64,000 bases of DNA from Tetradesmus obliquus (Eukaryota > Chlorophyta > Chlorophyceae > Sphaeropleales > Scenedesmaceae). How positions within the stretch are numbered: position 1 is the first letter of the stretch; each line of letters opens with the position of its first letter. Made by a program: the position numbers and the translations under genes. Positions 5,008-63,402 of this stretch are shown here, piece after piece. The notes beneath the pieces were generated by a model. That model was not told where the DNA came from. It made no database searches and was given only the letters and a program-made list of their open reading frames with translations. Location of the stretch: NCBI GenBank assembly GCA_030272155.1, contig CP126191.1, positions 1,076,501 to 1,140,500 on the forward strand, given 5' to 3'.

Positions 5008-6814
5008 ATGCTTGGTGTCTTATCTCCTTGGCAGCTGTTGAGCGCTAGCTCTAAGCGCGTGGCTCTGCAGTGGGTGACAGCAGCGTTCCCCCGCTCTTCC
5101 GTGCCCATCAGGCATATCCCAGCCGGCTTTGGGCCATCCAAGCAGCTCCATCGCGCCTTACAGCTAACACCTACACAGCCAAGCAGCAATATGCCTCGCC
5201 CACTTACCTCTGGTGCCACCAGGGCATCTGGCCTGATATCCAAGCACAGCAGCAGCAGCAGAAGGGGGAGTCAGCGCGGCCGCAGCACCACAACCCGCGC
5301 ATACGCAGCTGTTCCATCTGTTGTGGATGAATCTAGTGATCCCATCATCGTGGCTGCAAGCTGGCTGGGAGCCAAGCAGCGGCCGTTCAGCAAGTGAGTG
5401 CAGCGCAGTGTGTGAAGCCATGCTTGCATGCATGCAAAGCATGTCCTGCAAGCCTTGCCGCAATGCGGGCTGTACTGTTGTCGATGCTGCAGCTGGCATG
5501 CACACATCAGCCGCGCGTGCTGGGACCTGCATTCATGTCTGCACTCTACTTCTGCTAACACTGTGTTACTGGCAGCAAGTGCAAGCGCGCATGAATGCGC
5601 ATGCAGCGTGTATGCATGCGCCAGCCTGCCATGTACCCTCTGTCTCACATTCCAACAATGCTGCCTTTCCTCACTGCCTGTGCCTGTATTTGCTGCCTGC
5701 AACCGCCAGGTACAAGCAGCTGTGGCAGTCCCTGGGCTTCCATAGCATCATCTCAGCGCGGCCCCCAATGAGCAGCATTATGGTGCCCGCTGCGGGGCAG
5801 CTGCTAGCAGCCAAGTTCACGCACAGGCTGCTGCAGACAGCGCAGCAGCGGCCAAATGCACCCATCCTGGTGCACCTGTTCTCTGGCGGCGGCTTTATTT
5901 TCATGGGCTGGGTGTTCCAGATATTGTCGGAGCTGGAGCCACACAATGCGGCAGCGGCAGACGTGCGGTCACGCATCCGCGGCGTCATCTTTGACAGCAG
6001 CCCAGCAGACGTGACGGCAGGTGCGGCGCATGCTGTGGCTTCGGACGGCGCACAATGCATTCATAGCATGTGACAGCAGCAGCAGCAGCAGCAGTGGACA
6101 CGGCAGTTTCCTGTGTGCCTCAGGCAGCTCTGTGCTGATGCAAACCAAACCAAGCAATCATCCTGCTCATTGCTCGCTGCTGCTGCTGAACCTCGTGCCA
6201 CCCTGCAGATGTGTCGTCGCGAGCGCTGGTCGCTGCTGCCCTAGGCCGCCCTGCTGAGGGCATCGAGGATGAGCTGGGCTGGCTGGTCAAGCTCACAGCA
6301 TGTGTGTCACTTGCAAACTCAACAGTGCTGCTTGCCTTCTGCTAATTGCTTTTTCTTGCCACCTGCAGATGTGTCGTCGCGCGCGCTTGTAGCTGCTGCG
6401 CTGGGCCGCCCCGCTGAGGGCATCGAGGATGAGCTGGGCTGGCTAGTCAAGCCCACAGCAGCAGTCGTAGAGGGCTACCTGAAGCTGCCTTTCATCCGGA
6501 CCTCGCTGCTGGGTATGGAGCAGTCATGGCTGCAGCAGGCCCCTGCGTGCCCGAAGCTGTTTCTGTATAGTGAGGCAGATGTGCTGATTCAGCCGGGGGT
6601 GGTTGAGGGCTTTATGGCTGAGCAGCAGGCGGCTGGCAGTCAGACGTACTGCTACAAGTGGAGTGATTCGGCGCATGTAGATCATTACCGGAAGTATCCG
6701 GAGGAGTATAAGCAGCAGCTGGCGCGGTTTGTGCAGCAGGTGCTACCGGAGCAGCAGCAGCAGCAGCAGCAAGGGCAGCAGCTGGGCGGCGCTGGTGCTG
6801 ATGAGAATGTATGA
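5008..6814 (+). CDS. TMEM53/DUF829-family alpha/beta-hydrolase
   Basis: Three exons: about 5008-5393, 5710-6020 and 6369-6814 (TGA at 6812). The frame is open from an ATG at 4870. ATGs at 5008 and 5191 are also possible starts; the one at 5191 gives a Ser/Arg-rich transit-peptide-like N-terminus (MPRPLTSGATRASG). Family features in order: IIVAASWLGAK (strand 1), LVHLFSGGGFIFMGW (nucleophile elbow, Ser before GGG), VIFDSSP, LFLYSEADVLI (acid residue) and SAHVDHYRKYPEEY (His), so a Ser-Asp-His triad can be proposed. The C-terminus is a Gln run. Known: DUF829 proteins are membrane or organelle associated in plants and animals and their substrate is unknown. A partial second copy of exon 3 lies in intron 2 (6209-6300). 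Confidence 0.86.
6209..6300 (+). repeat. Upstream copy of TMEM53 exon 3 start with its acceptor
   Basis: These 92 bases repeat 6369-6460 almost exactly, including the preceding CCTGCAG acceptor. The copy is in the same phase: joined to exon 2 it would read DVSSRALVAAALGRPAEG, then run through a Lys-Leu change into a stop. It has no good donor before that stop, so use of this acceptor would truncate the protein before the Asp and His of the triad. It could be a decoy acceptor or a recent tandem duplication scar. Distance between the two acceptors is 160 bp. Confidence 0.85.
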
Positions 6815-8341
6815 GCTGATTTGCTGCTGCTGGGTTTGTGGAAGAGATTGCTGTAGCACCGCTTGGTGCTGCTGTTGTTGTTGCTGCTGCTGCAGGCCTG
6901 CCACTTGGGCAGGTGCTGCTGTGAGTTCTGCATTGTGTGATTGCGTGTGAGTGAGCGATACGATGTGGAAGTTGCCTGTGAGGGTGCATCACATGGTTGT
7001 GGAGGGAGTTGCTGAGGGGCGAGTCTGCTGGGCGTGTGTGCTGTACCAAGTGCCGCTGCCGCGCAGTGTGATGATGAGAATGATGCAGCATGCTGCAAAG
7101 AGAACAATAAGGTAGGTCTTCAGGCCTGTCAACAACGTTTGCAACCAATGAGGAGTGTGAGCGATGGGATGGTTGCTGTGGGGGTTTGTTTCAGAGGTGA
7201 CATTTTGGCTGCTGCGGCGCAACTGCGGTAGCGCAGTCGCTATTGCAGCAAGTTTTGATGAGTTTCCACAAGGTGTTCCTAGCACCAACGGCTTGGCGCT
7301 GAGGCATGCGACATTGCTGCAGAAATTGCAGCTGTAGGAACCCAGGTGGCAGCTGTGCTGCTGCACAAGCAGGTGCTGCATGCCATCAAGGATCGAATGA
7401 TGCGGTTTCTAGCTGACTCGAGCTCACTTAATGAATCAGGAGGTTGCCTTAGGAACCCCTGCGAACTGGCTTGAAGCTGGCGGCATCCACGTCATGTAAC
7501 GCGCAGACATGCAGCATGGTCACATTCAGCAACAGCGCCACTGACGCAACACATAAGCGCTTGCATGATCAGCGCTACAGACCTGAGGTGTGTACAACCA
7601 TATGCATGCATGTGCGCATGGCATAGCTGGAACCAATCGGACGGTGAGGGTAATTGATTACGTCATTGCGCCCTCAGGCTAGAAGGCTGCTGGACACGTG
7701 TACAGGCATGTTACAGGCTGTCATGCTGCCCATCCAGCGAGCCATTGACAGGCTCATCTGGCAAAAAAGGGAAGCAACAACAAGACAAAGCCACGAGGCA
7801 GAGGAATACACAAACACACATCACGTCACCGTCACTGTGACGGCGCCACAACTCATCCGGTCATTCTTCGCACGCCAATTCCAGCGCGGCGTGTACAGCA
7901 CCCCGTGATGTATACATCGCCAGATGGCGCTCAGTAACCAGTTGGTTGCTGCTGTTGACAACAGCTTTAGTAAAGCAGGCCTTGGGGCCCAGCTGGCCCA
8001 CCTCATCGCCTGATCAAGCCCACCTCCTCATCCAATGCCGATCAGCCGATTCGATCCCAGTCAGCATCAAGACCAGCAGCTCGAAACAACCGGCGCCTAC
8101 ATGCGCCAGCCAGTTACAGCCGACACTGGGGTGTAAAGGGGTGTGTGCTGGCTGCTGCTCCCTGCACCACACCTCGACCCAACTGCCAACAACATGCATG
8201 TGCCAGTCACCAGCACCACAGCTCAAAACTATGTGTGCGAGGCGGATGACACTGCCATGGCGCTAGATGAATATGTCCGCAACCTTCTCAGCGCGCTGCC
8301 GGGCGACACAAACTTAACCCCACTTTCTGATACAACCCGGC
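6815..8341. other. Convergent intergenic region
   Basis: This holds the 3' regions of the TMEM53-like gene (plus) and the DUF4202-like gene (minus). No exon is supported. A TGTAA pentamer at about 7495, the usual poly(A) signal in chlorophycean nuclear genes, could end the TMEM53 transcript and would give a 3' UTR of about 680 bases. The triplet runs near 6750-6900 are the poly-Gln coding end and its shadow. Confidence 0.4.
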
Positions 8342-11300
8342 TTACTCGTAGTCGAAGTTGGCGTAGCGCCAGTCCCCTGGGTGCGTGCTGGCTGCCGACA
8401 CGCCCTCCACATCCATCATGATGCTCGCAAACTTGCCCGGCACAGGCAGCACCTTCTGCAGCAGCCGCTGCTGCACGGGCGACCAGCGCTGCTTCAGCAC
8501 CGTGACGATGCCATTCTGCATGGAGGGCGGGAGAGCAGTAGCAAGAGTTAGGGAACCTAGAGTAAGCGCAAAAGAGACCCAGGAGCAAAGTGCGCTAGAG
8601 TGAGCTGATCTGTCGAGTGACATCCTGTACTAATATGCATGCAAGCAACAGCCTGCCAGGCTCATCACACACGCCAGGTAAGCAAGATAGCCAGGAGCGT
8701 TACTGCCCCATCAAGCAGTCCTATAATGCGACCCAGCTGCCAATCTGCAAGGTATCAAATCAATTTCAAGGCAGAAAGCGCCAGACACAGCACCTGGGAG
8801 AGCCTGCTGAGCTCGCGCATGCACACCGCCGCCACCTCGTCAGCCGGCATGCAGGATGGTGTCATTAAACATAGAGCAAACACAGCCGAACAGCGCACCT
8901 GGGAGGGCCTGCTGAGCTCGCACATGCACACGACCGCCACCTCGTCAGCCGGCATGCAGATTGGTGTTAATAAATATAGAGCAAACACCGCCGAACAGCG
9001 CACCTGCGACAGCCTGCTGAGCTCGCGCTTGCACACCGCCGCCACCTCGTCAGCCGGCATGCGGTTGAACATCTCCTCAAAGTTCTTCTCCAGGAACAGC
9101 AGCGCCTCCGCATCATCCAGCGTCTGCATCATGTTAACGGCCTGCGGGTGCAAAAGCAAACCAACCAAAGCATGCGGCGTTATTAATGGTGTGATGCATC
9201 AGCGCGTCCGCGTCATCCAGCGTCTGCATCATGTTCACGGCCTGCAACAGTGATGCACAAAATGAAGGCAAAGGCACGTGTTGAAATGATTCAGCTGTTA
9301 CCAGACCTGCGTAGCGCCCAGCGATTGCATGATGGCCATCGCCTTTGACGGCAAAATAGCAGGCATGACACCAGCAACAACAGCAGTTGTGACTCAAAAT
9401 TGTATGGCTGCTGACACACTCAAGATGTCATGAAATAATGCATGTGACGCCGCACCTGCAGCTTCTTGAAGTCTACCATGCCGAGGTTTCCGATGAGGTC
9501 GTACTTGCGCACGTCGCGCGGATCAGGAAGGTTCTTGCCCATCATGATGTTCTCGATCAGCGTCTGCGTGGCCTCATCATAGCCGGCCTCCTGCAAAACA
9601 ACAAATGAAAGCAGTGCGAGCAGGCAAGGCCGAGAACAACGTGGGCAGGAGATTGCAGCACATGATCAGACGGTTGATCAGCGTCTGCATGGCCTCGTCG
9701 TAGCCGGCCTCCTGCAACACAAAAAAGCCAACAGCCATGCAAGCAGGGCCGGGTTAGGTATGTACACAGGAGAGACGAGCCCATCATCGCGTTCTCAATG
9801 ACCGTCTGAGTGGCCTCTTATATAGCAAGCCTCGTGCAGGAGGAAGTCAACAGCAGCGCAAGCAGGGCAGGGGTAGTAAGGCGCGCAGGAGGAAACAGGC
9901 CAGCTTCACACGCGCAGTTAGCGCCTATGCAGCCTTATCATAACTGCCCTTTGCAAGGATGACAGGGCGGCATTGCAACAGCAATACAGTGCGTGTTTTT
10001 CACAAAGCAGTGCACCTTGACCACCGCCAGCAGCCTGTTGAGTATAACACATTGCAAGGGAGAGATAATGCGTGTACACATGTATAACATGATTAGTGAA
10101 AGGGGAACGCACCTTGACCACCGCCAGCAGCCTGTTGGCCAGCCACTTCTTGCGGTCCATCTCCCACTGCCGCATGCCGGGCGTGTTGGGCGCGTAGTCG
10201 TCACGCTTGATCTGGGACAGCTGCCAGCTCTCGATGCTCCTGCAGATCACCAAGCACACAGTCTTTTCAGCATAATATACTTGACGAAAAGCAGCGCACA
10301 CATGCAGTCACAGCTGTGAGCCTCAGCAGTGGTGGTGTGGGGCTCCAGCTTTGGGACAGCTGCCAGCTCTCAATGCTCCTGCAGATCACCAAGCGGCAGT
10401 CTTTTCAGCATAATATACTTGACGAAGAGCAGCGCACACATGCAGTCACAGCTGTGAGCCTCAGCAGTGGTGGTGTGGGCTCCAGCTCTTGGACAGCTGC
10501 CCGCTCTCAATGCTCCTGCAAATCACCAAGCACGCGGTCTCTTCAGTATTGTATTGGATGAAGAGCAGCGGACACATGCAGTCACAGCTGTGAGCCTCAG
10601 CAGTGGTGGTGTGGGGGTCCAGCTCTGGGACAGCTGACAGCTCTCAATGCTCCTGCAGATCATCCCAACAGGTGAGTGAGTGAGTGAGTGACTACCCAGG
10701 CGGCTCTGCAGCTCTTGGGTAAGTTAAGGCTAAGAGGGTGTGTGTGGCCAGGGGCGGCGCCCGTGGGCTCCACATCCTCTACCTGTCTGCTTGCGCCCTA
10801 GGGCACAAGCGGGGCGAACAGGTGACACAAAGGAGTGACGGATCTACCAGGCTTCATTCAGTTTCACGCGACAGATACATCGCACTTGGTCAGCTAGCAG
10901 CTGCATTGCTCCTGCAGATCGCCAAGCAAGTTTTGTGACAAAGAGCAGGCATGCGGTCGCCGCGCAGTAAGCCTCAGTGGTGATGATTGGGCTCCGAACC
11001 GTTGACTTCTTCTTGTGCCGTGTCACTGGCCGTGGCATAGCAGCCCCAGGCGCATCAGCAGTAAACAAAGGAGCCTCTTTGATTCCCGCAGCTATCAACT
11101 TGCATGCAGTGGTTGTTGTGCTTGTAGCAATCGCCCCGCAGATTCCGCCAGAGCCAAATGCAGACCACACACAGGCCGCCCGCGGCTGGTTTCCTTGAAT
11201 CACGCATATATCCCCAATGCACTCAGACACTTACTTGCCCCGCGCCAGGATGAGCAGCTCATCTGACGCTTTTGGGTCCAGCCGCTTTACCCACTCTGTC

Positions 11301-11753: not shown

Positions 11754-11784
<31 letters not shown>

Positions 11785-13817: not shown

Positions 13818-13853
<36 letters not shown>

Positions 13854-16800
13854 TGCAGCAGCCATGGCGGCCTGTGCAGCCTCTAAGCGCTCCACTAGCC
13901 GCTGCTTGGTGCCGCGGGCATCCATAGATAGGGCCAGCAGCGCTTGCCGCAGCAGTGCGCAGGTCATCTTGGAGGGAGGCAGCTCAGCGGGGTCGTCTGG
14001 TGCGCAGTGGCTCACAAACTCCTGCAGGCAGTCGCGGCAGTTTCAACGGTTATAGACGATTGGAAGCAGCGAACAGGTCATCTTGGAGGGAGGCAGCTGG
14101 GCGTGGTCCCCTGGCGCGCAGTGGCTCACAAACTTCTGCAAGCGGTTGCGGCACTTATGTGAACAACAGAACGGTGCTGGCACTGTTACGATGGTTTTGG
14201 CACTTGAAGCAGTTGCCAGTGGGTGTCAACATCTCTCAACGGACATATACACATACACACAACAACATCAGCTGCTGTCAGTTGATGCAGCCGCATGCCC
14301 ACCTTTGCCACTTGTGCTGCTGCCATGCTCTTGAGCCTGCTGGGGCTCAGCAGCTGCTTGGCCGCAGCAGCAGCATCTGCCCCTGCTGCTGCCCCTGCTG
14401 CTGCAGTGCTGTCCTGCTTGCTGCTCTTGCTGTCAGGGCGCTTCCGGCTTTTCGACTGCTTGCCAGCCTCAGCAGCAGCAGCTGCTGCTGCTGTGCCAGA
14501 GGCAATGTCCAGCTGTAGCGGCTGGCAGGTGGAGCAGCAGTACACCTGCAGACAGATGAGATCCAATTTGCTGTTAGAGTAGCGTGTTGGCGACATTGTA
14601 CTGTGACAGTGCCAAAGGTGGTGTAGCCGCTGCCCAGGCAGAACAGCAGTAGCACGCGCTTCACGTGTGCAAAACAGCGAAGAATGCTGCGACGGCGACC
14701 TAGCAACTGATGATGCTGGCACCCTCTCGTCATCTCTGCAATCCCACGCAGATGGCTGCAGTTGTTACCTCAAATCATGCAGTGTCATGGTGACCGCCAC
14801 AAAGCATGCGCGACACATCAGGCGCTGCACACACTCACCGTGCGTCCCGCCATGTCCCACGTGGTGACGGGCCCTTTGCAGAAGCCGCACTGGCGCTGGT
14901 TGTAGATGTACCTGCATTGCAATGCGGCAACGTGGATACGCAAGGCTAGGATTCATTAACATCACTGCTGGCAAGTCCCAGGGCATGTGGAATCATGCAA
15001 ACCTGGCTGCCAGCTGAGCATGAAGTCAGATGATGTGCCTCAACAGGCATCAGATGCACCAGGCACAGCGTTACTTGCGCTGCGGTTGCCAGCAGCTGAA
15101 AGTAACGAATTGATTCATGAACATCACTCAGCTAGCCAGCTAGCCAGCCGGCTACAAGCCATGCCAAACCCCTCACCTGCGCGTCCAGGGCTTGCCCAGG
15201 GTTTTGGCGTCCTCTGGATCAACCGTCAAAATGCTGCCGCTGCTGAACCCTCGCTGCAGCAGCTCCGCGCAGTGGGCCGAAAAAGGTTTGAAGCACGACA
15301 TGCCTTGCCATGTACCACCTGCCAGCTGACAATGCCAACCCAAGCTCTGTCCACATACCAGCAGTCAACCAAAAGTCAGCACATGAACACCGCTCAGATC
15401 GCCAGCCAACTACAAGGCCCCAAAGCCCTACCTGCGCGTCCATGGTTTGCCGAGGGTTTTGGCGTCCTCCGGATCAACTGTCAAAATGCTGCCGCTGCTG
15501 AACCCCCGCTGCAGCAGCTCCACGCAGTGGCCCCAGATTGTGTCAAAGGCTGCCCTGCTGATGCTGTTGCCGGGCTGCTCTGGGTGCACGCGGGACTTGA
15601 AGAGGATCTCTGCCCGGTAGATGTTGCCGACACCTGCGGGGCGGGTGACACACAACTACTAGGCCTTATGCTTATACCCTCAACTACTAGGCCTGAGCCG
15701 TGACATGGCGACTGCATGGTGGTGACTGCATCGTGGCTCTTGGGCAATGCTGCCACATTGGTGCAGTGTCAGCACGCAGCAGTCTCGCTGCAGACATGCA
15801 AGCACCCAATGTCCACTGGACACTACAGCAATGCACTGACTGGCTGCTGCAGAGACATATACACACACAGACATCCGCCCCGCACCTGCGACCGCCAACT
15901 GGTCCATCAGCAGCAGCCCAATGGGCTTCCTGCTGCTGGGCCCCGCATAACAACAACCGGCCAATGCAGCCATGTGGTAAAACAGGAGTGCTTACATCTG
16001 TTTGGGCAGTCGCGAAGCACACCTGGCTGCTTTGGCGCACACGCTGAGTGCACTGGCAGCACGCAGCGACTGCACACCGCAACCAGTCCCACCTGCGACT
16101 GCCGACTGGTCCATGAGCAGCAGCCCAATGGGCTTCCTGCTGCTGCTGACACGCGCCCAGAAGCGCTCCTTATCGTCTGATGGGCGAAGAGGGTCGGGGC
16201 CCAGCTTTGACACCTGCACCACACAAAAGGACACATTTTTGGTTTGTTTGCATCTGTACTTCAAGTGCTCGACACAGCAAGAGAGTGAAAAGGCCAGGTT
16301 GGCGCCGAAGGCGTCAAGCAGCGGTGGCTGCTGCGTTGGTGCATCTAGCAATGCATATTGAAATCATTAGGTTCAGCCGCCTGTGCATGTGCTGGTGATG
16401 CACCGCAAACAGCTGCATCAACCAACACATACACAAACATCAGTCGCTCAGCAGCCCCACCTTCTCCTGGTACAGCCCCAGCCCGCCGTGCTGCACCGTC
16501 ATCGCGCTCAGGTGTGCCATCAACTGACTAGGGCTGTGCAGCAGCCGCAGCCGCGTAGTAGCAGTAGGCTCAGGGCCAGGCAGCAGGCTAGTCCTGAAGG
16601 CACCTGACATGCCAAAGTGCACGTGCACGACCACAGTGTCCTCTCCATCACTGCTGCTGCTGCTGTTGTTATTATTGGGGCTTGTTGTGGTGGCAACTGC
16701 AGCTGCAGCGGGTTGGCGGCTGCGAGAGCGACCACCCGCTGCAGGTGTTGCGGGGGCAGGTGTAGCTGGACTTGATCCTGCTGCTGCTGCTGATGTCACT

Positions 16801-17742: not shown

Positions 17743-17766
17743 CACTGGAACAATGCGGCGCGGCGC

Positions 17767-17798
<32 letters not shown>

Positions 17799-22311: not shown

Positions 22312-23714
22312 GCTGCCGCCTTCATCTCCTGCTCCTAAAGCACCCTCCTCTCTAGCGGTAGCTGCAGGTTTAGCTGCTGCTGCCGCTGCTGCAGCGCCAC
22401 GGCCCGGCAGCACGCGCCGCAGGCCTTCGTATGTTGTGAAGAAGATGGCATTGCCCGGCAGCTCCCTGCACAGGGTGGGCAGGTAGCCCCTCCAGAGGCC
22501 TGGTAGGCCTTCGGAGCTGATGATGTGGCGCAGGCAGGCAAGGGGGCTGGTGTGCTGGGCCATCTGAAAGTGATCAGAGAGGGAATGAGCAGCAAAAAAA
22601 GCAGGAGGATGCAGAATCAATGCAGCGTCAGCGGTTGGCCGGCTAACATCAAAGTGGCTGCGAGGTGAGAAAGGCATTGATGACAGGTGTCAAGAATAAT
22701 ATGGCAGGTAGCCCCTCCACAGGCCAGGCAGGCCTTCTGACTGGATTATGTGGCACAGGCAGGCCAGCGGGCTGGTGTGCTGCACCATCTGAGATTGTGA
22801 AGTACAAATAAAACGAGCAGTGAAGTGCAACACAGGACATGATGAATCAGTACCACAATCAGTATCAGGCCTGGCAGGCCTTCTGACTGGATGATGTGGC
22901 GCAGGCAGGCGAGCGGGCTGGCATGCTGCGCCACCTGAAGTTAATCGAATGATGTGGATGGCATGGTGAGTGGAGTGCAGCACAGAGCAAGATGATCCAG
23001 GCCGGAGTCAGTGTAAGGAGGTAGGTGATCGGATCTGAACAAACGGACTTGCCGGCCGGGCAAGGTGTTGATGGTAGCAGCAGCACGTGGCAAACATGGC
23101 AGGGTCTAATGCTGGTAGCTGCCGTTCGCTGCTGCAGCTTTGAAGATAAACAGACTGGCTGTCATGCTTGATAGCTGGCGAACGTATCAATGTGTAGCTG
23201 CAACAGCTGTTTACTGTATTCTGCCCCGGCATCTGCTCAGGTCTATGTGCACCGGCCTAGTTTTGCTCGACTGTGTACGACTACATCTATGGCTTGCACT
23301 GCTGCCAGCAGCGCTGCTGCGCCCACCTGCATCCTGCACTTGACCAGCTCAGTCGGGCACAGGATCAGCGGCAGCACCATGCCAGCCATGGCGCCAGCGA
23401 CTGCAGCACAGCAAACAGATCAAACACCATGTTTAATCAATAATATTTGTCATCATGCAATCAGCCGGCAACAAATGGCTGCGGTAAAGGACTGGGTCTA
23501 GCACAGCTGCTGCATGCATGCAACACTGTTGATGCATAAGTTGTTATGACGTGCATATGATAAGCCACTGCAGCGGCATCTGCTCCCAATTGCCTGCTGA
23601 ATTGCATGTGATGACCGCTGCTGCCGCTGCGGCTGCTGCGCAATCGATTTTTTTTGCTGCTGACTTGGCACTGCGTACAACGGTGTCTGGGCGCCTGGCC
23701 ACATAGCATGGCAG

Positions 23715-27519: not shown

Positions 27520-28320
27520 CGCGCATACGCCTCCACCGCCTGCACCAGCTGCAGGAAAACATCCCTGCACTCCTCACCAACACACCTAGGGCCTGCGCCC
27601 CAATCACTGTGGCTGTACCTGTGCCATAAAACCACACATCCCTCATGCAGACGCCTCCACGGCCTGCACCAGCTGCAGGAACACGTCCCTGCACTTCACC
27701 ATCACACCTATATGGCCTTAGCCACAATCACTGTGCCTGCCCTTGTGCCATCAGACCACACTCACCCTCACGCAGACGCCTCCACCGCCTGCAGCAGCTG
27801 CACGAACACTCCCTGCGCCTTAAACACACCCATAGCCTGAGCCACTGTAAGTGTACCGCCCAGTGCCCTGTGCGGTCAAAAGCACCAATCCTTCCTCACG
27901 CAGACGCCTCAACCGCCTGCACCAGCTGCAGGAACATGTCCCTGCACCTTCAACACACCTCGCACCAAATCCACAACACACCAGCAATTGCAACAAGCTG
28001 TGCACTAAAGCCTTCAAGCAGACGCCTCCACCGCCTGAACCAGCTGCAGGAACACGTCCCTGCACTCCTCATCATCACACCTCATGGCCTGAGCTACGAT
28101 AATTGTGCCTGCCCTTGTGCCATCAAACCACACCACCCTTATGCAGACGCCTCCACTGCCTGCACCAGCTGCAGGAACACGTCCCTGCACATCACCAACA
28201 CACATAGGGCCTGAGCCACAACAAGTGTGCCTGCCCGTGTGCCATCAAACAAGCAGCTTTCACGCAGACGCCTCCACTGCTTGCACCAGCTGCAGGAACA
28301 CGTCCCTGCACTCCTCATCC
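27520..28320 (-). repeat. Seven-copy array of the CHUP1-like terminal exon end
   Basis: The last roughly 50 coding bases of the CHUP1-like gene (CRDVFLQLVQAVEASA plus stop) occur seven times. Copy ends lie near 28264 (true), 28143, 28018, 27900, 27772, 27647 and 27523, so the period is 118-128 bp. The spacer, with a conserved gggcctgagccacaa-like block, is repeated too. Most copies keep the frame and carry their own stop (TGA or TAA). The one at 27772 is shifted and the last reads into a non-stop codon. Possible effects are alternative 3' ends or a repeated 3' UTR element. Confidence 0.93.
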
Positions 28321-46500: not shown

Positions 46501-46843
46501 GCTGAAATGACTGAGCTGCCTGCAGCAGCTTGCGCCTGCAAGGTCTGCCTACTCTTCATGAGTCAGATGGCATGGATGACCCAACGTCGCCGCTTATGCC
46601 AAGGCTGTACGAACCACAATTGCGCGCTAATTCCTTGCTGCTGCTGCAGATGGCGTGGGTGACCCCAACGACCCTGCCTACGCCAAGGCTGCACAGGGCC
46701 GCCCCTCACCCCACGGCGCCACACACACTGGCGGCAGTGCCATTGAGTTCCCAGGTGGCCCGGGGCAGCGTCACACCTCTGATGCTGTGGCTGGGGGGCC
46801 TATCAAGGGCGGCAGCAAGACCACCTTCACCACCATGGGCTGA
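39814..46843 (+). CDS. Eleven-exon protein of unknown family with Cys cluster
   Basis: Exons in phase: 39814-39941, 40259-40370, 40540-40622, 40825-40981, 41354-41488, 42726-42973, 43946-44051, 44370-44462, 45858-45971, 46257-46317 and 46650-46843 (TGA), giving 476 residues. I do not recognise the family. The first 90 residues hold two similar strand patterns (LKASVFEGKLHVHIKD and ISARLDNRKLHVRIARR, the second after LPEDAFTDD) that recall an HSP20/alpha-crystallin-type sheet; this is a guess. The rest is hydrophilic, rich in Gly, Ala and Lys and low in hydrophobics, like a disordered or LEA-type protein. Exon 8 holds CVLCACAPCQC, the only Cys residues seen in the protein. The end is GGSKTTFTTMG. 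Clean phase agreement over ten introns makes it a real gene. Nearly every exon has a partial copy in a flanking intron. Confidence 0.8.
41042..41102 (+). repeat. Downstream copy of unknown-gene exon 4 end with donor
   Basis: This repeats VNMGSSIVTAMPVMVNQ and the donor (boundary 41102), 121 bp after the true donor boundary at 40981. One residue differs (Ala to Thr). Confidence 0.9.
41440..41836 (+). repeat. Four tandem copies of unknown-gene exon 5 end with donor
   Basis: The true exon 5 end (EELAAKLRDTV, boundary 41488) is followed by copies ending at 41614, 41726 and 41836, with spacings of 126, 112 and 110 bp. All keep GTG followed by a GT donor. Further decayed traces of actgtggtgag run to about 41975. 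Confidence 0.92.
42073..42162. repeat. Long imperfect hairpin in intron 5 of the unknown gene
   Basis: The arms read acatctgctggtccagg and agctgcatgtgt on the left, and acacatgcagct and cctggaccagcagatgt on the right. The centre is near base 42118. After a 3-base internal loop the arms extend through agccaga/tctggct and ctt/aag. Total arm length is about 40 bases, with only small bulges. Transcribed, it would form a strong stem-loop. Confidence 0.93.
42575..43223 (+). repeat. Copies flanking unknown-gene exon 6
   Basis: Upstream: 42575-42642 repeats the exon 6 start (VHDAAPPGA.VLH.QKE) 151 bp before the true start at 42726. Downstream: 43157-43223 repeats the exon end (DDEQLLATGEKGEKIK) and donor 250 bp after the true donor. 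The same exon thus has an acceptor-type copy on one side and a donor-type copy on the other. Confidence 0.88.
43818..44147 (+). repeat. Copies flanking unknown-gene exon 7
   Basis: Near 43818-43868, FTKSKVGIECED repeats the exon start FTKNKVGMEYEE about 121 bp upstream, with a CACAG acceptor. At 44115-44147 the exon end (GPISSTKQ against GEPISSMKQ) and donor are repeated 96 bp downstream of 44051. Confidence 0.8.
44581..44634. repeat. 54-bp perfect palindrome
   Basis: taaggagtgtggttttgggt runs on through tgttcag and is followed at once by its exact reverse complement, with no spacer. The centre lies between 44607 and 44608. It sits in intron 8 of the unknown gene. It could extrude a cruciform or fold as an RNA hairpin, and such sequences are prone to assembly error. 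Confidence 0.95.
44717..44757 (+). repeat. Downstream copy of unknown-gene exon 8 end with donor
   Basis: MRKTGGYSNDPFE repeats MRKGGGYGNDPFE together with its GTG donor, 295 bp after the true donor. The palindrome at 44581 lies between the two. Confidence 0.85.
44827..44904. repeat. Inverted repeat, 21-bp arms
   Basis: ctagccctatataccacacc on the left (44827-44847) pairs with aggtgtggtatacagggcta on the right (44884-44904) with one mismatch and a 36-base loop. It lies in intron 8 of the unknown gene, about 200 bp from the perfect palindrome. Confidence 0.92.
45040..45118. repeat. Imperfect ttattgcc tandem repeat
   Basis: Seven or so short units of ttgttattgcc and gctgttgcc type follow one another in intron 8. 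No coding value is apparent. Confidence 0.8.
45735..45783 (+). repeat. Upstream copy of unknown-gene exon 9 start with acceptor
   Basis: MTPAETKRSGKPAIH is present after GAGCAG at 45735, 123 bp before the true exon 9 start at 45858. The two share about 45 bases almost exactly. Confidence 0.92.
46396..46610 (+). repeat. Copies of exon 10 end and exon 11 start in one intron
   Basis: Near 46396-46425 the sequence gtctagggtaacgtgcctgg repeats the exon 10 end and donor. At 46566-46610 atggcatggatgaccc repeats the exon 11 start (DGVGDPNDPAYAKA) 84 bp upstream of the true acceptor. Both junction types thus occur in a single 330-bp intron. Confidence 0.78.
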
Positions 46844-48449
46844 ATGATTGGATTGCTGATCAGTGATTGTGCGTGTGCGTGTGTAAGCAACAGAGTTTGT
46901 CGCGGGCGGCAGGAACTGGAGTGCCTGTCTTGCAGACAGTCAGCAGTGCAATGTAATGTTAGTGAGCGTGCTGGCAGCGCCATTGACTTCCCAGGTGGTC
47001 CTGGCCAACGCCACACCTCAGATGCTGTGGCTAGGGGGCCAATTAAGGGCGGCAGCAAGACCACGTTCACCACCATGGGCTGAACAGGACAGATTGCTGA
47101 GCAGCAGGGCCCCTGCTTGTGCGTGTGTCGGCAGGAGAGATATGAGGAGGCGCACAAGGATTGCAGGGCTTGCCTTGCGCGTCTATACCAGTTTGAGGTG
47201 GTGTGTGTCAGCTAGTTGGCAGGTTGTATGGATGCGGTGGTCGTGCCACAGCGCAGATGCTGTGGCTGGCGCGCCAATCAAGGACGGCAGCAAGACCACG
47301 TTCACCACCTTGGGCTGAGATTCTATGGCCAGTATGTGAGGGGCTATGGATGCAGAGCAAGCTGCTGCACAGCAATGGACGCAGCAAGTCAGGATGCTGC
47401 CCACGCACATGTAGCAACAAGATCTTGTTCAAGACCACCGGCGGAGGTGGGATGAGATGAGATTGTGGATGAGTGGTGGACGGGAGAGATGGATGGATGC
47501 AGCGTGCGGCAATGCGCAGCTGCTGTAGCTGTATCAGCAGGAGAGTTGGTGGAGGGGTGTACGGGGTTGTAGCGCTAGTAGTGGACGCATAGGTGAGGCG
47601 GCAGCAACATGCCTTTGTCGTGTTTCCATCCTGCTGCTATTCGGCAGCCTGGCACTGCATGGGGCTGTAAAGTACAGTGCAGGCAAGGTTTTGTGGCAGC
47701 TCTGGTCAGATACGGCGGTCTCACGTCAGTTGTGGTAGAAGGTGTGCAGAGCAGCACAATTGTGTAGCAAGTTGGTAATCAAGTGACTGTCTGACGCAGC
47801 TGCTTGAGGTGGGTTGAACATATGGTGCCGACGCCGGCATGCCATCATGCCATGCTGCGCCACATTTGTGTAGGTGTGGGTGTGTGCCATATGTTGCTTG
47901 TGCATGTGTATGAATGGCAGTAGGTGGCAGCGCAGCTGCTCGCACCATGTGTGGTTTGAGTTGTGCTGTTTGAGCTGTGTTGAAGTTGGCAAATGTTTGC
48001 ATCTGTCAGCAGTCTTCCTACTGATGGAGTCTTGTCACAGGCAGATTGTTGGTTGTGCACAACCAAAGCACGTGCTTTGAGATGAGGTAGCGGTAGCAAC
48101 TGATCTTCAATGATAGGATTGGGCCCCACCCCTTTCAAGCGACATATTCTAAACTTGCCACAGCATCATCGACAGCAGTGGCCTCTGTAACAGCAGCGCT
48201 GGCTGTTATCCAGCGAAGAGGTGCCTGCAGTCTCGTACAACTACTAGCAACATGACGTGGTGCACCACATGTGTACAGATGTACATCGCCGAACCCTGCA
48301 AGGAAGCTGAGCTGCAACGTACCAAGCACCCGCAAACCACAGTGATGCAATGCAATCAACTTCACAAGCTCAGCACAGCTCAGCTCAGCTGTGTGGCACA
48401 CACTGACTGTGTCAGGATTGAAACCAAGCCATGTTGCTGCACTGCCATA
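46844..48449. other. Two more copies of the unknown gene's last exon, then intergenic sequence
   Basis: At 46968-47083 and 47244-47318 the end of exon 11 (HTSDAVA.GPIKGGSKTTFTTMG and stop) is repeated twice past the true stop, with stops at 46843, 47083 and 47318 (240 and 235 bp apart). Between 47320 and 48449 no exon is supported. A convergent minus-strand gene ends at 48450. Confidence 0.85.
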
Positions 48450-49805: not shown

Positions 49806-49995
49806 GATTCAGATTGTATGCCTGTATAGAACGCGGTGCGGTGAGCGGAGACTCTGCTTGTTGTGCGTAAGCCGGAGAAGCCTCAGAGTGAATTCCAGCT
49901 CGATCCAGCTTAGTCCATAAACGAAACAGTCACAACTTAGGACCTCAGAGCTTCAGAAACACAGGTTTAGACGCTTTGCTGCATCAGGCAGGCAC

Positions 49996-50406: not shown

Positions 50407-50484
<78 letters not shown>

Positions 50485-52277: not shown

Positions 52278-52323
<46 letters not shown>

Positions 52324-54086: not shown

Positions 54087-56657
54087 ATGCGCTCCCTCGG
54101 CAAGCAGTGTCGCGCTAACCAGGTGCAGCACAACGTTCCCAGCGCAGCAAGGATTGGCGCAGCTGTTGGTCGGAGCTGCTTTCAGACACGCAACAGACTG
54201 GCGGGAAGTGGGTCACGACACCATGCCAGCACAATTTTGAGGGCCGTGGCGGAAGCTGTGCAGGGGGAGAGCAAGGAGCTGGTGAGCATATAGTTCGTAT
54301 CATAGCACGTATTTAGTGACAATGGGGCTGCCTGGAGAGCGGCCGATTTACGGCATGCAGCTCAAGAGCCCTGCTCTGCTGCTCTACTCCTGCAAGCAGT
54401 GCACACCAGCATGCAATCGTGCTGGCATCTGTGTACAATGCTAAGCACCTAAATGTATCTGTTACAGTAGACTGTGCTGATGCCTGCTAGCTTAGCTAGG
54501 AATTTGCAGCGTGGCGTGCGCTGTGCAGGGTGCTGTCTCCTGCCAGTGCATCCTTTCCTTGCGGCGTTGCAACTAGCATCTTGTGTTGTTCATTGATGAT
54601 CACAACAGAACAATACACCAGTGCAGCGATGCATGATGCAGCTATACACACAGATCCAGCAGGGTGTGGGTTGAAGCACAGCATGCTGGCAAAGCGCCAG
54701 TTGGCAACTTCTGTGCAGCACACACCTGCAGATCAGGATATTCTGCTGCATGCTCAACCTCCTGGCAGACCTAATCTCACAAAACAGTGTGTAACACAAC
54801 CAGTGAGCAGCGCACGTCAAGCTTGCTGGCTCTTAGCATCCTTGTCCGTAGTTTGCATGTTGATCGTTGTTTCATTGGATGCTGTGCTTAGCTGCGCGTG
54901 CATTTTATGCATCCCGTGATTGCTGTGCAACAGCATCAGCCCTCTAAAGCAGACTGCACATGCACGTACCTCCATCAGCACCTCACAGCTGACACATGCA
55001 GGGAACCTGCAGCATGAAGGCACAGCGCAGGGCTGCGCTGCATTCAACACCCGCACGGCGGCAGGCAGTAACTGGAGTGCAGATCATGTGAAGAAAGCTG
55101 GGCCTCACATCTTGTAACACTACTGTTTTATCACCCAATCGTGAACGCTGCACAGGATACCAGATAGCACAATGAATAGATCACCGCCCTCACCACTCCA
55201 AGCCTCAGCATGTGCACCTCTTCCAGCATGCACCGCTGCGCTGCTGCGGTGCTGCTGCAGCTAGGGCAACAGCTGCTCGCCCATGTCCCAAAGCACTGCA
55301 GATCGCAAGCCGATGTGATGCCTCTTGCGGACCATCAACGCAAGCATGTCCTCCAACACTAGCCCTGCACTCTCTGCTGCTGCTGCTGCTGCTGCTGCTG
55401 CACGCGGTGCACCTCTTTGCAATTTGCAGGCGCTGTACAGCGTTGACCAGCAGCTTGAGCAGTGCCGCAAGCACCTCCACTAACACTTCACCTATACTCT
55501 GCTGCTGCTGCTGCTGCTGCTGCTGCCACATCACATCACATCACAGGCGCTGTACAGTGTTGACCCGCAGCTTGCGGACCACCGCGAGCACCTGGACTAC
55601 CGCTGGAACCACTACAAGTGGGTCAAGGGCAACATTGAGCAGGCAGTGGGCAGCTTGGATGACTTCGCCAAGGTGCGCTTCACAACAGTGGCTTGTGACA
55701 CCGCCTTGACTTTGTTTGATTGGCACAGTATGTTGCTGCATGTTGTCCCTACAGAAGTGTGCATGTTGTGGACATCCTCATTCATTCCTGGATTGGCCAG
55801 GACCAGCATGTCCCATGCACATACAACCATGGTTTCATGCCCACACAACCATCATATGCTACTAACTTTGTGCTGCATCCCAAACCTACCATCAACAGCC
55901 CCTCGCACCAACCTCCCTCATCTCAAACCTTCGTTTTGTTGGGGTTCCAGACCTTCCCACACTCAAGTCTGAACCCTCTGAACTGCCGCAGGGCTTTGAG
56001 TTTTTGGGGTTCATCCGCAAGGATGGCAAGCTGAACTTTTGACTCCTGGTCTGTTGATCCCTCGTCTGCTGCACCTCTAACCCCTTTCATTAAACCGTCA
56101 TACACTGAACCGCAGGGCTTTGAGTTGCTGCCTTCGTCAGTAAGGATGGCAAGACCATGTACTAATTCATCAATGTCAAACCCTCATCTGCCGCATCCCT
56201 CGTTCCAATTCCTAAACCCACGCCCACTGAACCGCAGGGCTTTGAGTCGCTGGGCTTTGTGCGCAAGGATGGCAAGACCATCTACCGCGAGTGGGCGCCC
56301 GGGGCCAAGGCTGCTGCGCTGATCGGCGACTTCAACAACTGGGAGTGCGCGTGGATGCAGAAGGACGAGTGGGGCGTGTGGAGCGTGGAGCTGCCTGACG
56401 GTGAGCAGCAGGTGTTTGCGGCAGCAGCAGCAGGGGAGGCGTGCAGCAGGGAATGGGCAGCAGCAGCAGCAGCCGCAGCAGCAGCAGCAGCAGCAGGGGA
56501 TGCATTCAAGGTGAAGGCCGAGTAGCAGTAGCAGCAGCAGCAGCAGCGCGGGATGTCAGCAGCAGCAGGGAATAGGCGGCGGCAGGGCAATGGGCGGTAG
56601 CAGCAAGGGGTGTGAGCAGCGATGGAAGAGTAGGCAGCAGAAGCAGCAGCAGCAACA

Positions 56658-56704
<47 letters not shown>

Positions 56705-59700
56705 TGTTGACGGTCCATTGCTGCGCTGGCAGAGGACCTGCAGATGTTGCAACTCCCGCGCCAGGCAATCAGCCATGCACATGCTGCGCTGCGTGCTCAG
56801 GCGGATGCAGCACTGCCTAGCAAACATGTGCAGCGTTCTCGGCCTCTATCGGCATGTTTTCCTGGGACCGTATAGACAACATGCAATCCTCCGCGCTGCT
56901 GGTTCAATTGTACTGTGCTCTGCTGCTGCAACAGGGCCCGATGGCACCCCAGCCATCCCGTACAACACCCGGGTCAAGACCAGGTGCATTGCTGGGCCAT
57001 TCGACACAATCCTGTGCATTGTATTGCTATGCTGTGTCGCAGGTCCTGATGGCTCCCCAGCCATCCCCCACAACAGCGGGGTTGAGATTGGCATGCATTT
57101 CCCTGCAATCTGACAGCTTGCTGCTTTTGTCACTTCCTGTGCTGTGCTGCCACAACAGGCCCTGATGGCTCTCCCGCCATCCCCCACAACAGCCGGGTCA
57201 AGATCAGGATGCAGGCGCATGGCGACTGGTGGTGCGACCGCGTGCCGGCATGGATCAAGTATGCGACCGTTCCCGAGGGCGAGATGGGAGCCAAGTACAA
57301 TGGAGTGTACTGGGACCCACCACGCGGCGAGAAGCACCTGTGGTGAGTGCAGCAGCAGCAGCAGCAGCAGCAGCAGCGGCAGCGTGGACAACAGCAATAT
57401 CAGCAGCAGGAGCAGCAGCAGCAGTTGGGGCAGCTATGAGGGTGCACTAGGGCCACATGACGGCTGGAAACAGCTGCGGCAGGCTGCAGCAGGCAGACTC
57501 AGCAGAGGCAATCCCAGTCCACCTGAACATGCCTTCCCTGCCCCTGCTGCTGCTGATGCTTTTCCTGCTGCTCCTGCTGTCCCTGATGCTTGCTGCTGCT
57601 GTTGTACAGGCGCAACCGCCGCCCCAAGCGCCCCTCCAGCCTCAAGATCTACGAGGCGCATGTTGGCATGAGTGGGGAGGACGAGGCAGTGAGCACGTAT
57701 GCGCAGTTCAGGGACGAGGTGCTGCCGCGCATCAAAAAGCAGGGTTACACGGCCATCCAGCTGATGGCGATCCAGGTAGGGCTCGAACCGGGGACCTGGT
57801 GCTCATTTTTTTGTTTTGGAGGCTGGGCGTGCTGGCTGCATATCAACAGGAGTCTGAGCAGCAGCAGGGCAGGGCAGTGGCCGAAGCAATGGTGATTGCG
57901 GGCCTGCTGTATAGTGCCAGCGATTGGCAGAGGCTGGTGTGTGTCAATGCAATGCAATGCAATGCAATGCAGCTGCTCAGATCATGTGTGGTGCCTGCCG
58001 TGTACTTGTGCTGCTTGCCTGCAGGAGCACGCGTACTACGCGTCATTCGGCTACCACGTGACCAACCCCTTCGCCATCAGCAGCAGGTGGGCGCTGGTTC
58101 AGGCTGTATGCTGTGTTCAGCTCTCTGAAACATTCTGCTCATTCCATTGTCACATCTCCTCTTGGCTCCGTGTCTACCCGCTTGTTTGTGTATGGCATGC
58201 AGGTTGCAACAAACATGTTATGACATACTTGTGACACATGTTACATTGTTATTTTTTTGCAGGAGCGGCACCCCTGAGGACCTGAAGAGCCTGATTGATG
58301 CTGCTCACGGCATGGGCCTGGTGGTGCTGCTGGACGTGGTGCACTCGCACATCAGCAGCAACGCCGACGATGGCCTGGCAGGTGCGCAGTAGGACATATT
58401 GTTTAGATGTATGTATTTGCTGTATTTGTAGCTTGGCTGCCTGATTGGCTAGCTACCAAGTGCACAGTGCACAGCCAGATCTCCAGCAACGCAGACGATG
58501 GCCTGGCAGGTGCGTGCCCAGCTGGTAACGACACATCAATCTACATGGCATGTGCCACCGTTTGCGCCTGGACACGCCTGCACACAGAGCTGCTTTGCGC
58601 ATCTAAAGGTAGCTTCAAAAGTCTTGGTAAAAATGTGTGTTTTACAACAATAATGCTGCAGCAGGCTCATCAAAAAGTCACAGATTTTGATGCTCAGCCA
58701 GTGCAGCAATGACCTGCATGCATGCTGCAAGCCCCCTGCTGAGCAGGTCCAAACACTCTCTCCAGGACCACCCAGCATACCAGTGAAATTGCCAACACCA
58801 GCAGCCTGAACATGGCCTGAAATGGCCTCTTTTTGCATGCAAAACACACCCAGCAGTCACACCAGCAGGAACCATGCCAACTACTCCAAGCTGCCCAAGG
58901 CTGTGCCCCACAAATGAAGTGCTTTGCAGCAAGATGCACCACTGGGCCTGCAGCACACCCAGCCACCAGTTGCCAGCCCAAACAGGACAGCACTGCAGAC
59001 ACCCCATGCAGCAGCACAGCAAAAACACAGCAGAACACAAGCAGCAGCCTCACACACACACCAGGGGCCTACAACTCAAAGTGCTGCCAGGGCATTCAGG
59101 CCAAAAAGATACCCTGTTGATTTACTTTTTTGGCTGCGGCTAAGGCTAAGGCTAAAGCTAAGGCTAAGGCTAAGGCTAAGGCGCGCGCGTGATATTTACT
59201 GTATGCACGCAGCAGGAATTGATCGTGCGATCTCTGGGATCACACGCAGGCGCGCTACCACTACACCATTGGAACACCTGGCAGAGGTTGGCAGTACACA
59301 TGTGGTATCGATATAAAACACCGACTCCATTTGAGCTGTGCTGAGACTTGGGCGGCAAAAAGCGGTATGACGCTCACTTTTGCAATAACCTTTACCCTGT
59401 TGTGCTCACTCCTTAACGGTTTCATATCTTTTTGCTGGCACACTTCTTTTTGCAGGCTTTGACATGGGCCAGGGCCAGGAGGCCAACTACTTCAGGTCTG
59501 GCGAGGCGGGCTACCACAAGCAGTGGGACTCCCGCATCCTCAACTATGGCCACTGGGAGGTGCGGGGTAGCTGCCTGTGTGGCAGTGTGATATTAGTGAT
59601 CATCAGCATTTGCTGGTTTGCGTTATGGTTGTGGTGGTTGTCACAAGCAGTGGGACGCATCCTCAACTACGGCCACTGGGAGGTGCGGCACACACAGTTG

Positions 59701-62700
59701 TTTGGTTGCAACTTGCTGTAGATATTGAAAGGGTTCTGTCAGTGAACTTGTAGTGATTGCTGGTTGTTGGTGCTCGCTATATGGGACGCTGCAGCTATAC
59801 TCTTCTGCACTGGGTGGCTGGAGCCGCTTGCGCCAACACTTCTTCCTCTGCTGCTGCTGCTGCTGTCCTTCTGCTGCTGCAGGTGCAGCGCTACCTGCTG
59901 AGCAACCTGCGCTACTGGCTGGACGAGTTCCAGTTTGACGGCTTCAGGTGGGGCCACAGCTGCTGCTGCTGCTAGCATCAGGGGATGCCTGCAGTCTGCG
60001 TTGATGCTGCTCAGCACAGCAGCAATAGCATCACTTGCCCTCTGTGTGGCAGGTGAAGCCGAGCAGTGTGAAACCTGCAGGCTTGCATGTGAGTTCTGGC
60101 ATGCCCAGCGGGCTGCTGACACTGCAGTGAGGGAGCTGCAATTTGCAGCGGAGGCATTGCTGGCATGTGCTTGTCATGTTCAGGCAGCTGCAGCAGTGTC
60201 CCTTGCATCCACTTTGCAATCGCCAGCAGCCTTGCAATTACAGCTGGCGTGTACGTCCGATGTGGCAGTGGCTCTAGCACCACACTGCCGGCCTTTTCAC
60301 CTTCAGCATTCCAGCTGGAAGTGTCTTCAAGATTGCTGAGGTTGCATGGTTGTGCATTTGTTTTGTGTTTCCTGCGTGTGCTGTGTGCAGGTTCGGGGGC
60401 GTGTATTCGATGATGTACCATGATCATGGGATTGGCATCGATCCCGCGCGCGCCTACCAAGCAAACAACATGTCAGTAACATGACACAACACCGTTACTT
60501 CACCATCCATGCAGGTTTCGCCCCCATGCTGTCTTTGCCTAACCACCAGGGTATCACACACGCCTATCACCACCATGCCTAGCACCCGGCGAGCGTTAGT
60601 AACATGTTACATTGTGTCATGTGTCATTCCTGCAGGTTTGACGGCGTGACATCCATGCTGTACCACCACCACGGCATTGACACAGCGTTCAGCGGCCACT
60701 ACCACGAGTACTTTGGCCCTCAGGCTGATGTGGAGGCCTGCGTGTACCTCATGATGGCAAATGAGGTCATCCACAAGCTGCACCCAGACGTGAGTGGCAG
60801 AAAGATACACTCAATTGATCTTTTTGCTTGTTCCTGTACTCTGTTGAGCTTGACGTAGTTGTACTGCCAGATGTAACGGGGCTTCCTGCAAGCTGTTCCG
60901 GTGTTCCTGCAAAGCATCTGCACATTGCATCTCACATACTGCACCCCTTGCTGTTGCGCACTGGCTAGGTTCATCAGCAAATTGTGCATAATTTTGATTC
61001 TACGGTTTGTTTACTGGTGCAGGCCATCACCATCGCGGAGGATGTGAGCGGCATGCCCACACTGTGCCGGCCAGTGTCTGAGGGCGGCCTGGGCTTCGAC
61101 TACCGCCTCAACATGGCCATCCCTGACACCTGGATCAGGTGCGGAGATCGATCAGATGTTGGTATTGCTATTGTTGTGGTGTTGGTGTGCTGTTATGTTA
61201 ACTACCGCCGCCATGTGGGCATCCCGGACACCTGGATCAGGTGGGCTGGCTGCGAATTTGGCTGCATCGCACGCTGTCCTGCTGTTTTCATGCTGTTATT
61301 TTGTCAAGCCAGAGCAGAGGAGTTTCTGCTGAATGCTGTGGTTCCAGGCCTGTCTGCGGCTTGCAAACAGTAGTAGCAGCATGGTTGGATGACATATAAC
61401 AAGGATCATCAACTCAACATGCGCTGCTGCTGCTGCTGCTTCGCCTGCTGCTGCTGCTGCTGCTGCTGCCACAGGCTGCTGAAGCACGTGCGTGACGAGG
61501 ACTGGGAGATGATGGACCTGGTCAACGCGCTGTGCAACAGGCGCTACACGGAGAAGACCGTGGCTTACGCGGAGAGCCACGACCAGGCGATGGTGAGCCT
61601 GCAGGCGCTGACACGCAGCTCAGCTGCAGCAGCAGCAGCAGCAGCAGTTGCAGCCAGCGTACTGCCAGGCTCCATGCAAATGTCTGTCTGGCATAGGACG
61701 AACCATTGCCTGCTGCAGCGACAGGAGACCTGCACCATCATACAGCATGCATGGCATGCACACACATCGACACCCGCGACCTCCCCTGTACCTTGTCATT
61801 GCGCCTGCACTGCCGATTAAACCTCTTTCTAACACTGTGTCCTCTCACCGCTGTTCTATGCTATTGTCAACTCTTCATTTAGGTGGGCGACAAGACCATT
61901 GCGATGTGGCTACTTGACGCTGAGATGTACACCAACATGTCCACGCTCAACGAGTTGTGACTGCTGTCTCCTCTCTCTGCTGTCTGCTGCCTGCTGTGCT
62001 AACAACAGGTGGGCGACAAGACCATTGCAATGTGGCTGTTTGACGCGGAGATGTACACCAACATGTCCACGCTCTACAAGTTGTTGACTGCTGTCTCCTC
62101 TCTCTGCTGTCTGCGGCCTGCTTTTGCCGACTGCAGGTGGGCGACAAGACCATCGCGATGTGGCTGTTTGACGCTGAGATGTACACCAACATGTCCACGC
62201 TCAACGAATCTACACCCGTCACGGAGCGCGGCATGGCGCTGCACAAGATGATCCGCATGGTCACCATGGCGCTGGGAGGTGCGGCGGCTGTCACAAAAGT
62301 TGTTACTTTTGTGTTCTTCACACTGCACTTGTCGCAGCACACGTTGTAGCCGCCTGGTGCTGCGCCTGTTTGGTTTCAAGGCTGCTTTGCTCCATGCACA
62401 CACCTGCTTGATTGGAGCTTATGTACCTTTTGTGACACGTTAATGCAACATGGTATGTAACATGTATTGCAACATGGCTGCAGGCGAGGCGTGGCTCAAC
62501 TTCATGGGCAACGAGTTTGGGCACCCGGAGTGGCTCGACTTCCCGCGCGAGGGCAACGAGTGGAGCCACAAGCACTGCAGGTGTGCAGTTGGTTGATTGG
62601 TGGTGCTGAAATGGGTTGCGTGACTGCATGTTGGGATGCATGGAGCCAGGAGCATTGCAGTTGTGGGGGTGTGTTGTATGGAAAGTGAACACTGATGTGC

Positions 62701-63402
62701 GGTGGCTGCTGGTGCAATGCAGTGCATCAGGCAGTGGAGCCCTGTTGGCATGGACCGCATGCACTTCCAGATGTGGGTACGCTTACTCTGGAAACTCTGA
62801 TGCTTCTGCTGCTGCGGATGCATATGTGCCTGCAGGCGCCAGTGGAGCCTTGTTGACACGGACCACATGCGCTACCACCAGCTCAACGAGTGGGACAGGG
62901 CCATGATGGAGCTGGACGAAAAGACAGGCTTCCTCAGCAGCAGCACGCAGTGGGTCACAGCCATCGACCAGGAGCGACAGGTGAGGGGTCGTGCCCATTA
63001 GTCGATGCCAGTTATACACAAGGAGGGCAAAGACGGGCTTCCTCAGCAGCAGCACGCAGTGGGTCACAGCCATCGACCAGGAGCGACAGGTGAGGGGTCG
63101 TGCTCATTAGTCGATTGCCAATGTCATATTTATGGAGTGCAATGACGGGCTTCCTTAGCAGCAGCATGCAGTGGGTCACAGCCATCGACCAGGAGCGACA
63201 GGTGAGGGGCTGTGCCTGCTGGCGTGTGGTGGCCATAGTTGGTGTGATGCAGATTCATAGAGACAGAGGCACTCAGGCTGCATGTCGGACCATGATGCTG
63301 GTTGAGAGTGATGTGTGCTGAACGCGCAAGCATGGATCCTGCTCTGACAATCCACCGTAGGGTGCGAAGCCGACGGTTGAACGTGCTGGTGACATTCGTT
63401 TA

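Follow-up and report, generated by a model that had tools for sequence, protein, structure and literature searches.

Partial Exon Copies at the Locus

The window, a stretch of 64,000 nucleotides covering positions 1076501–1140500 of contig C1, comes from the Tetradesmus obliquus genome (104.66 Mb in 17 contigs), and its genes and reading frames were read from the sequence alone. Pfam matched the exons of a DUF4202-like gene, a DUF829/TMEM53-like gene, and a mitochondrial carrier gene, and gave no match for the exon of a CHUP1-like gene that carries an array of copies at 27495–28311. The spliced model of a starch branching enzyme (SBE) gene at 55547–63932 aligns with bacterial branching enzymes at 47–55% identity along almost its whole length, which supports our choice of exons. 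Among the best 120 of 7998 matches to this SBE, the top homologue is a JGI protein (86%), and the closest sequences from named organisms are those of green algae, e.g., Myrmecia bisecta (67%). A paralog of the gene is found at another locus, L041. By eye, the two SBE paralogs seem to have few intron positions in common, which suggests fast intron turnover in the lineage. CTG/CAG tracts occur frequently across the whole window, and an SBE intron contains a dispersed repeat of ~790 bp (58599–59395), copies of which are 92–98% identical on contigs C5, C10, C12, and C17.

Exons of these genes have partial copies next to them. On the forward strand, an acceptor-side copy (intron edge plus exon start) of a DUF829/TMEM53-like exon is located at 6193–6300, with the true exon copy at 6354–6460 and an offset of 161 bp. 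On the reverse strand, two donor-side copies of the DUF4202-like exon ending at 9003 occupy 8790–8957 with a period of 105 bp. They are followed, on the same strand, by an acceptor-side copy of the exon starting at 9141 (9197–9245, offset 100), two acceptor-side copies of the exon starting at 9590 (9676–9838, offsets 121 and 243), a donor-side copy of the exon ending at 10113 (10012–10040, offset 97) in which 25 of 25 exon bases are identical, and three acceptor-side copies of the exon starting at 10239 (10352–10662, period 137–139). Also on the reverse strand, two acceptor-side copies of the mitochondrial carrier exon starting at 22563 lie at 22703–22938, and six copies of the last coding bases and stop codon of the CHUP1-like gene lie behind its stop codon at 27495–28240 with a period of 123 bp.

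The remaining copies are on the forward strand. The exons ending at 40981, 41488, and 44051 have, respectively, one (41044–41120, offset 121), three (41567–41850, period 110–126), and one (44109–44165, offset 96) donor-side copies, and the acceptor-side copy of the exon starting at 45857 (45733–45780, offset 121) retains 43 of 44 exon bases. In the SBE gene, acceptor-side copies are found for exon 1 (within a block at 55339–55482), exon 2 (two, 55986–56162), exon 3 (two, 56916–57097), and exon 12, which starts at 62137 (two, 61881–62077, period 126–128). Donor-side copies are found for exon 6, ending at 58381 (58467–58514, offset 128); exon 7, ending at 59559 (59642–59688, offset 127, with a 4-base deletion); exon 10, ending at 61138 (61201–61243, offset 102); and exon 14, ending at 62980 (two, 63029–63216, period 109–112).

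Junction Content of the Copies

Automatic scoring gave 47 junctions; five that had been placed on the wrong strand or within an exon were dropped as misassigned. The remaining 42 (21 donor and 21 acceptor) have a median exon part of 46 bp and a median offset of 123.5 bp, and the decoy GT or AG is intact in 39 of them. An earlier note on this DNA had claimed that every copy joins part of an exon to one intron edge. This is borne out at the scored junctions and breaks down at the 27495–28311 array, which consists of a reading-frame end with its stop codon and contains no splice junction. The note's arrangement of acceptor copies upstream and donor copies downstream was recovered as well, the partial copies being on the side where they remain intronic. 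The note had seen no convincing copy of a whole exon, and here 18 exon stretches, a few with outer ends set by hand, have 51 listed copies, none of which spans the full stretch. Tandem duplication of whole exons, or mutually exclusive exons, would place both splice sites in the copy, a configuration seen in 0 of the 51. Separately, a palindromic motif resembling TAACATGTTACA is apparently recurrent, by eye, 20–50 bases upstream of true acceptors (window 58225–58260 and 60600–60635; L041 5070–5110).

We surveyed exon edges in three chosen, nonrandom gene models, the window SBE, its L041 paralog, and the DUF4202-like gene, and recorded a copy when 23 or more of the 30 bases at an edge were matched within the adjacent 400 bp of intron. 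By this threshold, 25 of 55 edges have a copy in the adjoining intron; shuffled edge probes never matched more than 20 of 30 bases. A close copy was present for 0.45 of the probes on the terminal 30 bases of the exon, for 0.12 of those lying 75 bases deep in the exon, and for 0.11 of those immediately past the junction in the intron; the fraction rises again where the copies themselves sit. Three edges could be matched by eye between the SBE paralogs. At one, the donor of window exon 14, equivalent to that of L041 exon 8, both genes have copies; at the other two, only the L041 gene does.

Close Direct Repeats and Their Spacing

Self-comparison of the window revealed 48 direct and no inverted pairs of repeats at most 3 kb apart, and a single inverted pair at a greater distance. 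After removal of redundancy, 30 direct pairs were left, 24 of them with an offset of 90–159 bp. No close repeats appeared in five dinucleotide shuffles of the window, and bacterial loci totalling 123,430 bp contained two direct close pairs. Two further samples were taken from the genome: 19 random stretches of 10 kb on contigs C1–C5 (190 kb), and ten gene loci (46,896 bp) picked for matching the SBE, DUF829, or carrier family. The random stretches yielded 23 nonredundant direct pairs, 15 of them at 90–159 bp, and seven inverted pairs; the gene loci yielded 48 nonredundant direct pairs, 38 of them at 90–159 bp, and none inverted. Richness in close pairs was highest in the chosen genes, lower in the window, and lowest in the random sample.

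The exon-edge copies are thereby confirmed as a real feature of the window, and the narrow unit length that the earlier note had described for unrelated genes, with the predicted peak in the spacing histogram, extends beyond it. That the copies are an artefact of assembly is extremely improbable, given the divergence of their exon parts (0–22%) and the occurrence of close pairs in 14 of the 19 random stretches, all free of Ns, and in 8 of the 10 chosen gene loci (L043 has none, and L042 none closer than 1 kb). Of the spacings near 240–255 bp of the earlier note, here 240–258 bp, those at 9537, 55974, and 61881 belong to second copies; the window self-comparison placed such spacings also at 15137, 42919, and 46733. 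The repeats at 46733–47318 (73% identity) and 15137–15533 (87%) with this spacing may consist of double units or form a case of their own.

With simple repeats filtered out, copies of a full unit (60–300 bp at no less than 93% identity) numbered just two in 301 kb, both away from the scored junctions. One, of 82 bp, lies in L015 and the other, of 112 bp, in an intron of L041; both are exact and in tandem, with 5 and 4 bp, respectively, of extra match at the joint. The 112-bp copy, lying inside an intron, indicates from one case that the size class does not require a splice site. A distinct class of large direct repeats was observed at L012 (4889–8313), with 92–100% identity and offsets of 597–2573 bp.

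Exon Parts and Intron Arms

The intron arms of copy and original at the 42 junctions are more similar to each other than to unrelated arms of the same junction type (Kolmogorov–Smirnov [KS] P = 1.4e-9). For the 25 two-copy pairs, arms again rank above unrelated same-type arms (11 of 25 below 0.1, KS P = 7e-4); before removal of the five misassigned junctions, this test had given 13 of 28 below 0.1 and P = 9e-5. Dropping six further doubtful junctions gave P = 2e-6 for all and 7e-4 for two-copy arms. The residual homology indicates that exon edge and intron edge were duplicated together: the repeat unit holds both, as in a tandem duplication across the boundary.

The two parts of the unit have fared differently. 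In the two-copy pairs, exon parts within 30 bp of the junction are 88–97% identical, while ungapped arm identity is 0.38, 0.37, and 0.43 over positions +6 to +20 and then 0.24–0.29, against a null of ~0.26, so that ungapped homology is mostly limited to about the first 20 bases. Exon parts were kept while arms were lost, and an equal clock in both parts therefore fails. A plain neutral account would have random tandem duplications arising everywhere, those crossing a junction being the only ones to survive in genes, followed by simple decay. It would explain why copies are partial and lie on the side that stays intronic, why the arms are partly homologous, and why an exact intron-only copy exists. 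Under such decay, however, the 12 two-copy pairs with at least 29 of 30 exon bases identical should have arms at ~0.9, whereas their identity over +6 to +26 is 0.383 (0.319 in the 13 pairs with lower exon identity); full-unit copies of 60–300 bp are scarce and found at no scored junction; and the inner decoys of arrays differ by 5.7% in the exon part as against 20.6% in the arm. We consider the account very unlikely, and plain decayed tandem duplications were rejected on the difference in identity between the exon part and the arm. The earlier note's proposal of slippage or fill-in as a single mechanism is accordingly upheld in part: direct orientation, size class, and residual arm homology agree with it, and its continuation by simple decay is unsupported, since exon parts were kept and arms lost. 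Preservation of the exon part beyond simple decay points instead to small tandem duplications with continuing sequence exchange.

The short arm homology could also reflect a copying machinery aimed at splice junctions, which would copy the exon edge, the splice-site core, and a few intron bases. Homology often ends shortly past the junction, and the ~20-base limit in two-copy pairs fits this reading. Against it, gapped alignments match the arms of several pairs across the whole spacer, the pair at 42919 retains ~37 intron bases, and the 27495 array lacks a splice junction altogether. We judge junction-aimed copying to be unlikely; the weakening of the two-copy arm test and the shortness of the homology nevertheless raised its standing and lowered that of continuing exchange.

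Introner elements are repeated, intron-linked sequences found in many genes of a protist. The copies described here share with them the repeated, intron-linked occurrence in many genes and differ in being local to each exon: for the spacers of SBE exons 6, 7, and 10, no dispersed family appeared among the 40 of 165 candidate matches that were scored. The idea that the spacer is an element whose insertion made a long target duplication was rejected, as these three spacers have no other match among the scored candidates and the arms are partly homologous.

Silent Differences Between Exons and Their Copies

In 41 pairs from hand-chosen exons, differences between exon and copy fall 25, 17, and 82 times on the first, second, and third codon position, and 78 are silent to 46 that are not. 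The expectation for a free copy beside a constrained exon is a silent fraction of ~0.39 (estimated from 0.242). The bias is smaller in an automated set, with 129 silent and 125 other differences in 74 pairs, or 117 and 102 in the 63 pairs left after removal of a protein repeat and the misassigned junctions. Individual pairs have between 0 and 8 silent changes; in the extreme pairs, 6 of 6 and 7 of 7 differences are silent, and no silent bias is seen in the pairs at 44051, 61138, and L045. Hypermutation of CpG was rejected as the sole source of the bias, the non-CpG differences still being distributed 20, 13, and 51 over the codon positions. The silent excess may stem, for instance, from standing variation among strains.

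The codon pattern would be expected if selection kept the copies for some use, such as coding mini-exons or splice sites of an alternative or recursive kind (AG|GT ends), and the intact GT or AG in 39 of 42 junctions and the single cases with six or seven silent changes and zero others agree with this. By eye, however, most inspected copies have no clear second splice site, and offsets are not consistently multiples of three. The same contrast between parts, moreover, is found behind a stop codon. In the 27495–28311 array, copies 1–7 are 0.83–0.94 identical in the coding part and 0.58–0.88 in the spacers, and one copy has a 1-base deletion and another lacks the stop. Maintenance of the coding part there, even in the frameshifted copy, argues against coding use. 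Selection for splice or mini-exon function thus appears unlikely, and coding selection on the copies is weakened as an explanation by the array. In a related and decidedly unlikely version, the copies would be putative working parts, spare exon edges whose splice-site cores serve as ratchet points or splicing regulators, with selection following the encoded peptide. If so, nearly half of the exon edges in some genes would bear a maintained duplicate.

Silent-biased differences that are symmetric in direction (CpG losses 20 and 20), combined with diverged introns, might also arise if exon and copy came from two long-diverged versions of a gene, alleles or the subgenomes of a hybrid, joined out of register. 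For the one copy tested in this respect, that of the DUF829/TMEM53-like exon at 6193–6300, a genome search gave the copy and the true exon alone and no second version. The spread of silent changes among pairs (0–8) and the arrays of four to seven copies likewise speak against such joining, and a steady offset of 100–140 bp is not expected from it; we assign it a low probability.

Arrays and Possible Sequence Exchange

In concerted evolution of tandem repeats, inner units are alike and outer edges diverge. If exon parts exchange sequence, the inner arm would be copied or removed together with its exon part and the outer arm never, predicting a contrast between the two. Inner arms are alike and the outermost arm unlike them in seven of nine arrays; in these, inner arms align with 0–3 gaps, and pairs involving the outermost arm with 3–9, so that inner units are more alike than edge units, as in concerted arrays. 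The two arrays with no such contrast are L041 exon 5, with a CTG tract, and L041 exon 8, where the array continues; by eye, the 10239 array perhaps also continues upstream. Among inner decoys only, summed over seven rows of the array comparison, exon parts differ at 21 of 369 positions (5.7%, 4 gaps) and arms at 56 of 272 (20.6%, 13 gaps); with outermost arms included, the totals are 85 of 1153 and 171 of 801. Exchange of variants between copies is weakly shown: copies in L025 alternate CG/TT/CG/TT, violating the four-gamete rule, and such breaks occur in both of the testable arrays (two of six), a CpG site being involved in every break.

Discussion

We found a real form of junction-crossing tandem duplication that is dense in the genes examined and present in most of the sampled stretches. 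Our preferred explanation, to which we give a probability of roughly 0.45, is that the copies form small tandem arrays that evolve in concert, with the constrained exon as their anchor. Small tandem duplications of ~90–150 bp would arise in the genome, perhaps from an initial lesion such as a staggered break repaired with fill-in on both ends. Those crossing one exon edge would be nearly harmless because the outer copy ends up within the intron. Once present, the two copies may keep trading sequence through slippage or unequal exchange; selection on the working exon would keep the exon part and the splice-site core recognizable and so anchor the exchange, while the outer intron arm, staying outside of it, would diverge. 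By the same exchange, arrays could expand and contract by whole units. The direct orientation, the size class, the residual arm homology, and one exact intron-only case are observed. Anchoring by the exon and divergence of the outer arm, in turn, are suggested by the pattern of kept and lost parts.

Several observations speak against concerted evolution of the arrays. For homologous recombination, exchange tracts of 30–60 bp are short; the silent share of differences exceeds the prediction (78 to 46 in the hand-chosen exons and 117 to 102 in the automated set, with ~0.39 expected); and contraction is expected to remove copies fast, yet the arms appear old. To these are added the ~20-base limit of ungapped arm homology in two-copy pairs, the two arrays with no contrast between inner and outer arms, and the CpG site in every four-gamete break. 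The arrays resemble usual concerted repeats in their alike inner units and diverged outer edges, and differ in having as few as two units and in being anchored by a constrained exon edge.

The closest parallel that we found comes from one gene of potato, encoding RdRp. There, as its description in PMC4974935 has it, a tandem duplication crosses an intron–exon boundary with the copies head to tail; RNA evidence proved the new intron, and the copies have ten differences. The gene also has an 83-bp intron-only tandem copy (PMC4974935). The algal genes share with it the direct, boundary-crossing duplication and the additional presence of an intron-only tandem copy, and differ in that many exon edges are involved, the arms are decayed while the exon part is kept, and the case is known from DNA alone. 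The Rogers model, as described in PMC4974935, explains intron gain by duplication of an exon segment containing AGGT. Here, too, tandem duplication provides spare splice sites, but rather than being a purely exonic repeat whose copies bound the new intron, the repeat crosses an existing junction, its copies ending at the junction and sitting inside a longer intron. Fill-in by CST–Pol alpha at staggered breaks produces small tandem duplications (PMC8355091); it is a candidate for the first step, as the duplications here are likewise short, direct, and in tandem, although the passages of that work on fill-in do not deal with splice junctions, which the copies here cross. The pattern of exon-edge copies was not found in the titles and abstract openings of the papers listed by the literature searches, which covered a body with most subscription journals outside it.

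Single duplications across a junction were already known as sources of new introns. Here they are present at nearly half of the exon edges in three gene models, in a narrow size class, and in two paralogs at partly different edges. The copies offer a natural series for studying the growth and gain of introns, the way in which the splicing machinery passes over decoys that are nearly perfect, and the effect on sequence of exchange between one copy under constraint and another that is free. Gene finders and methods for dating duplications may misread genes that contain exon-edge copies.
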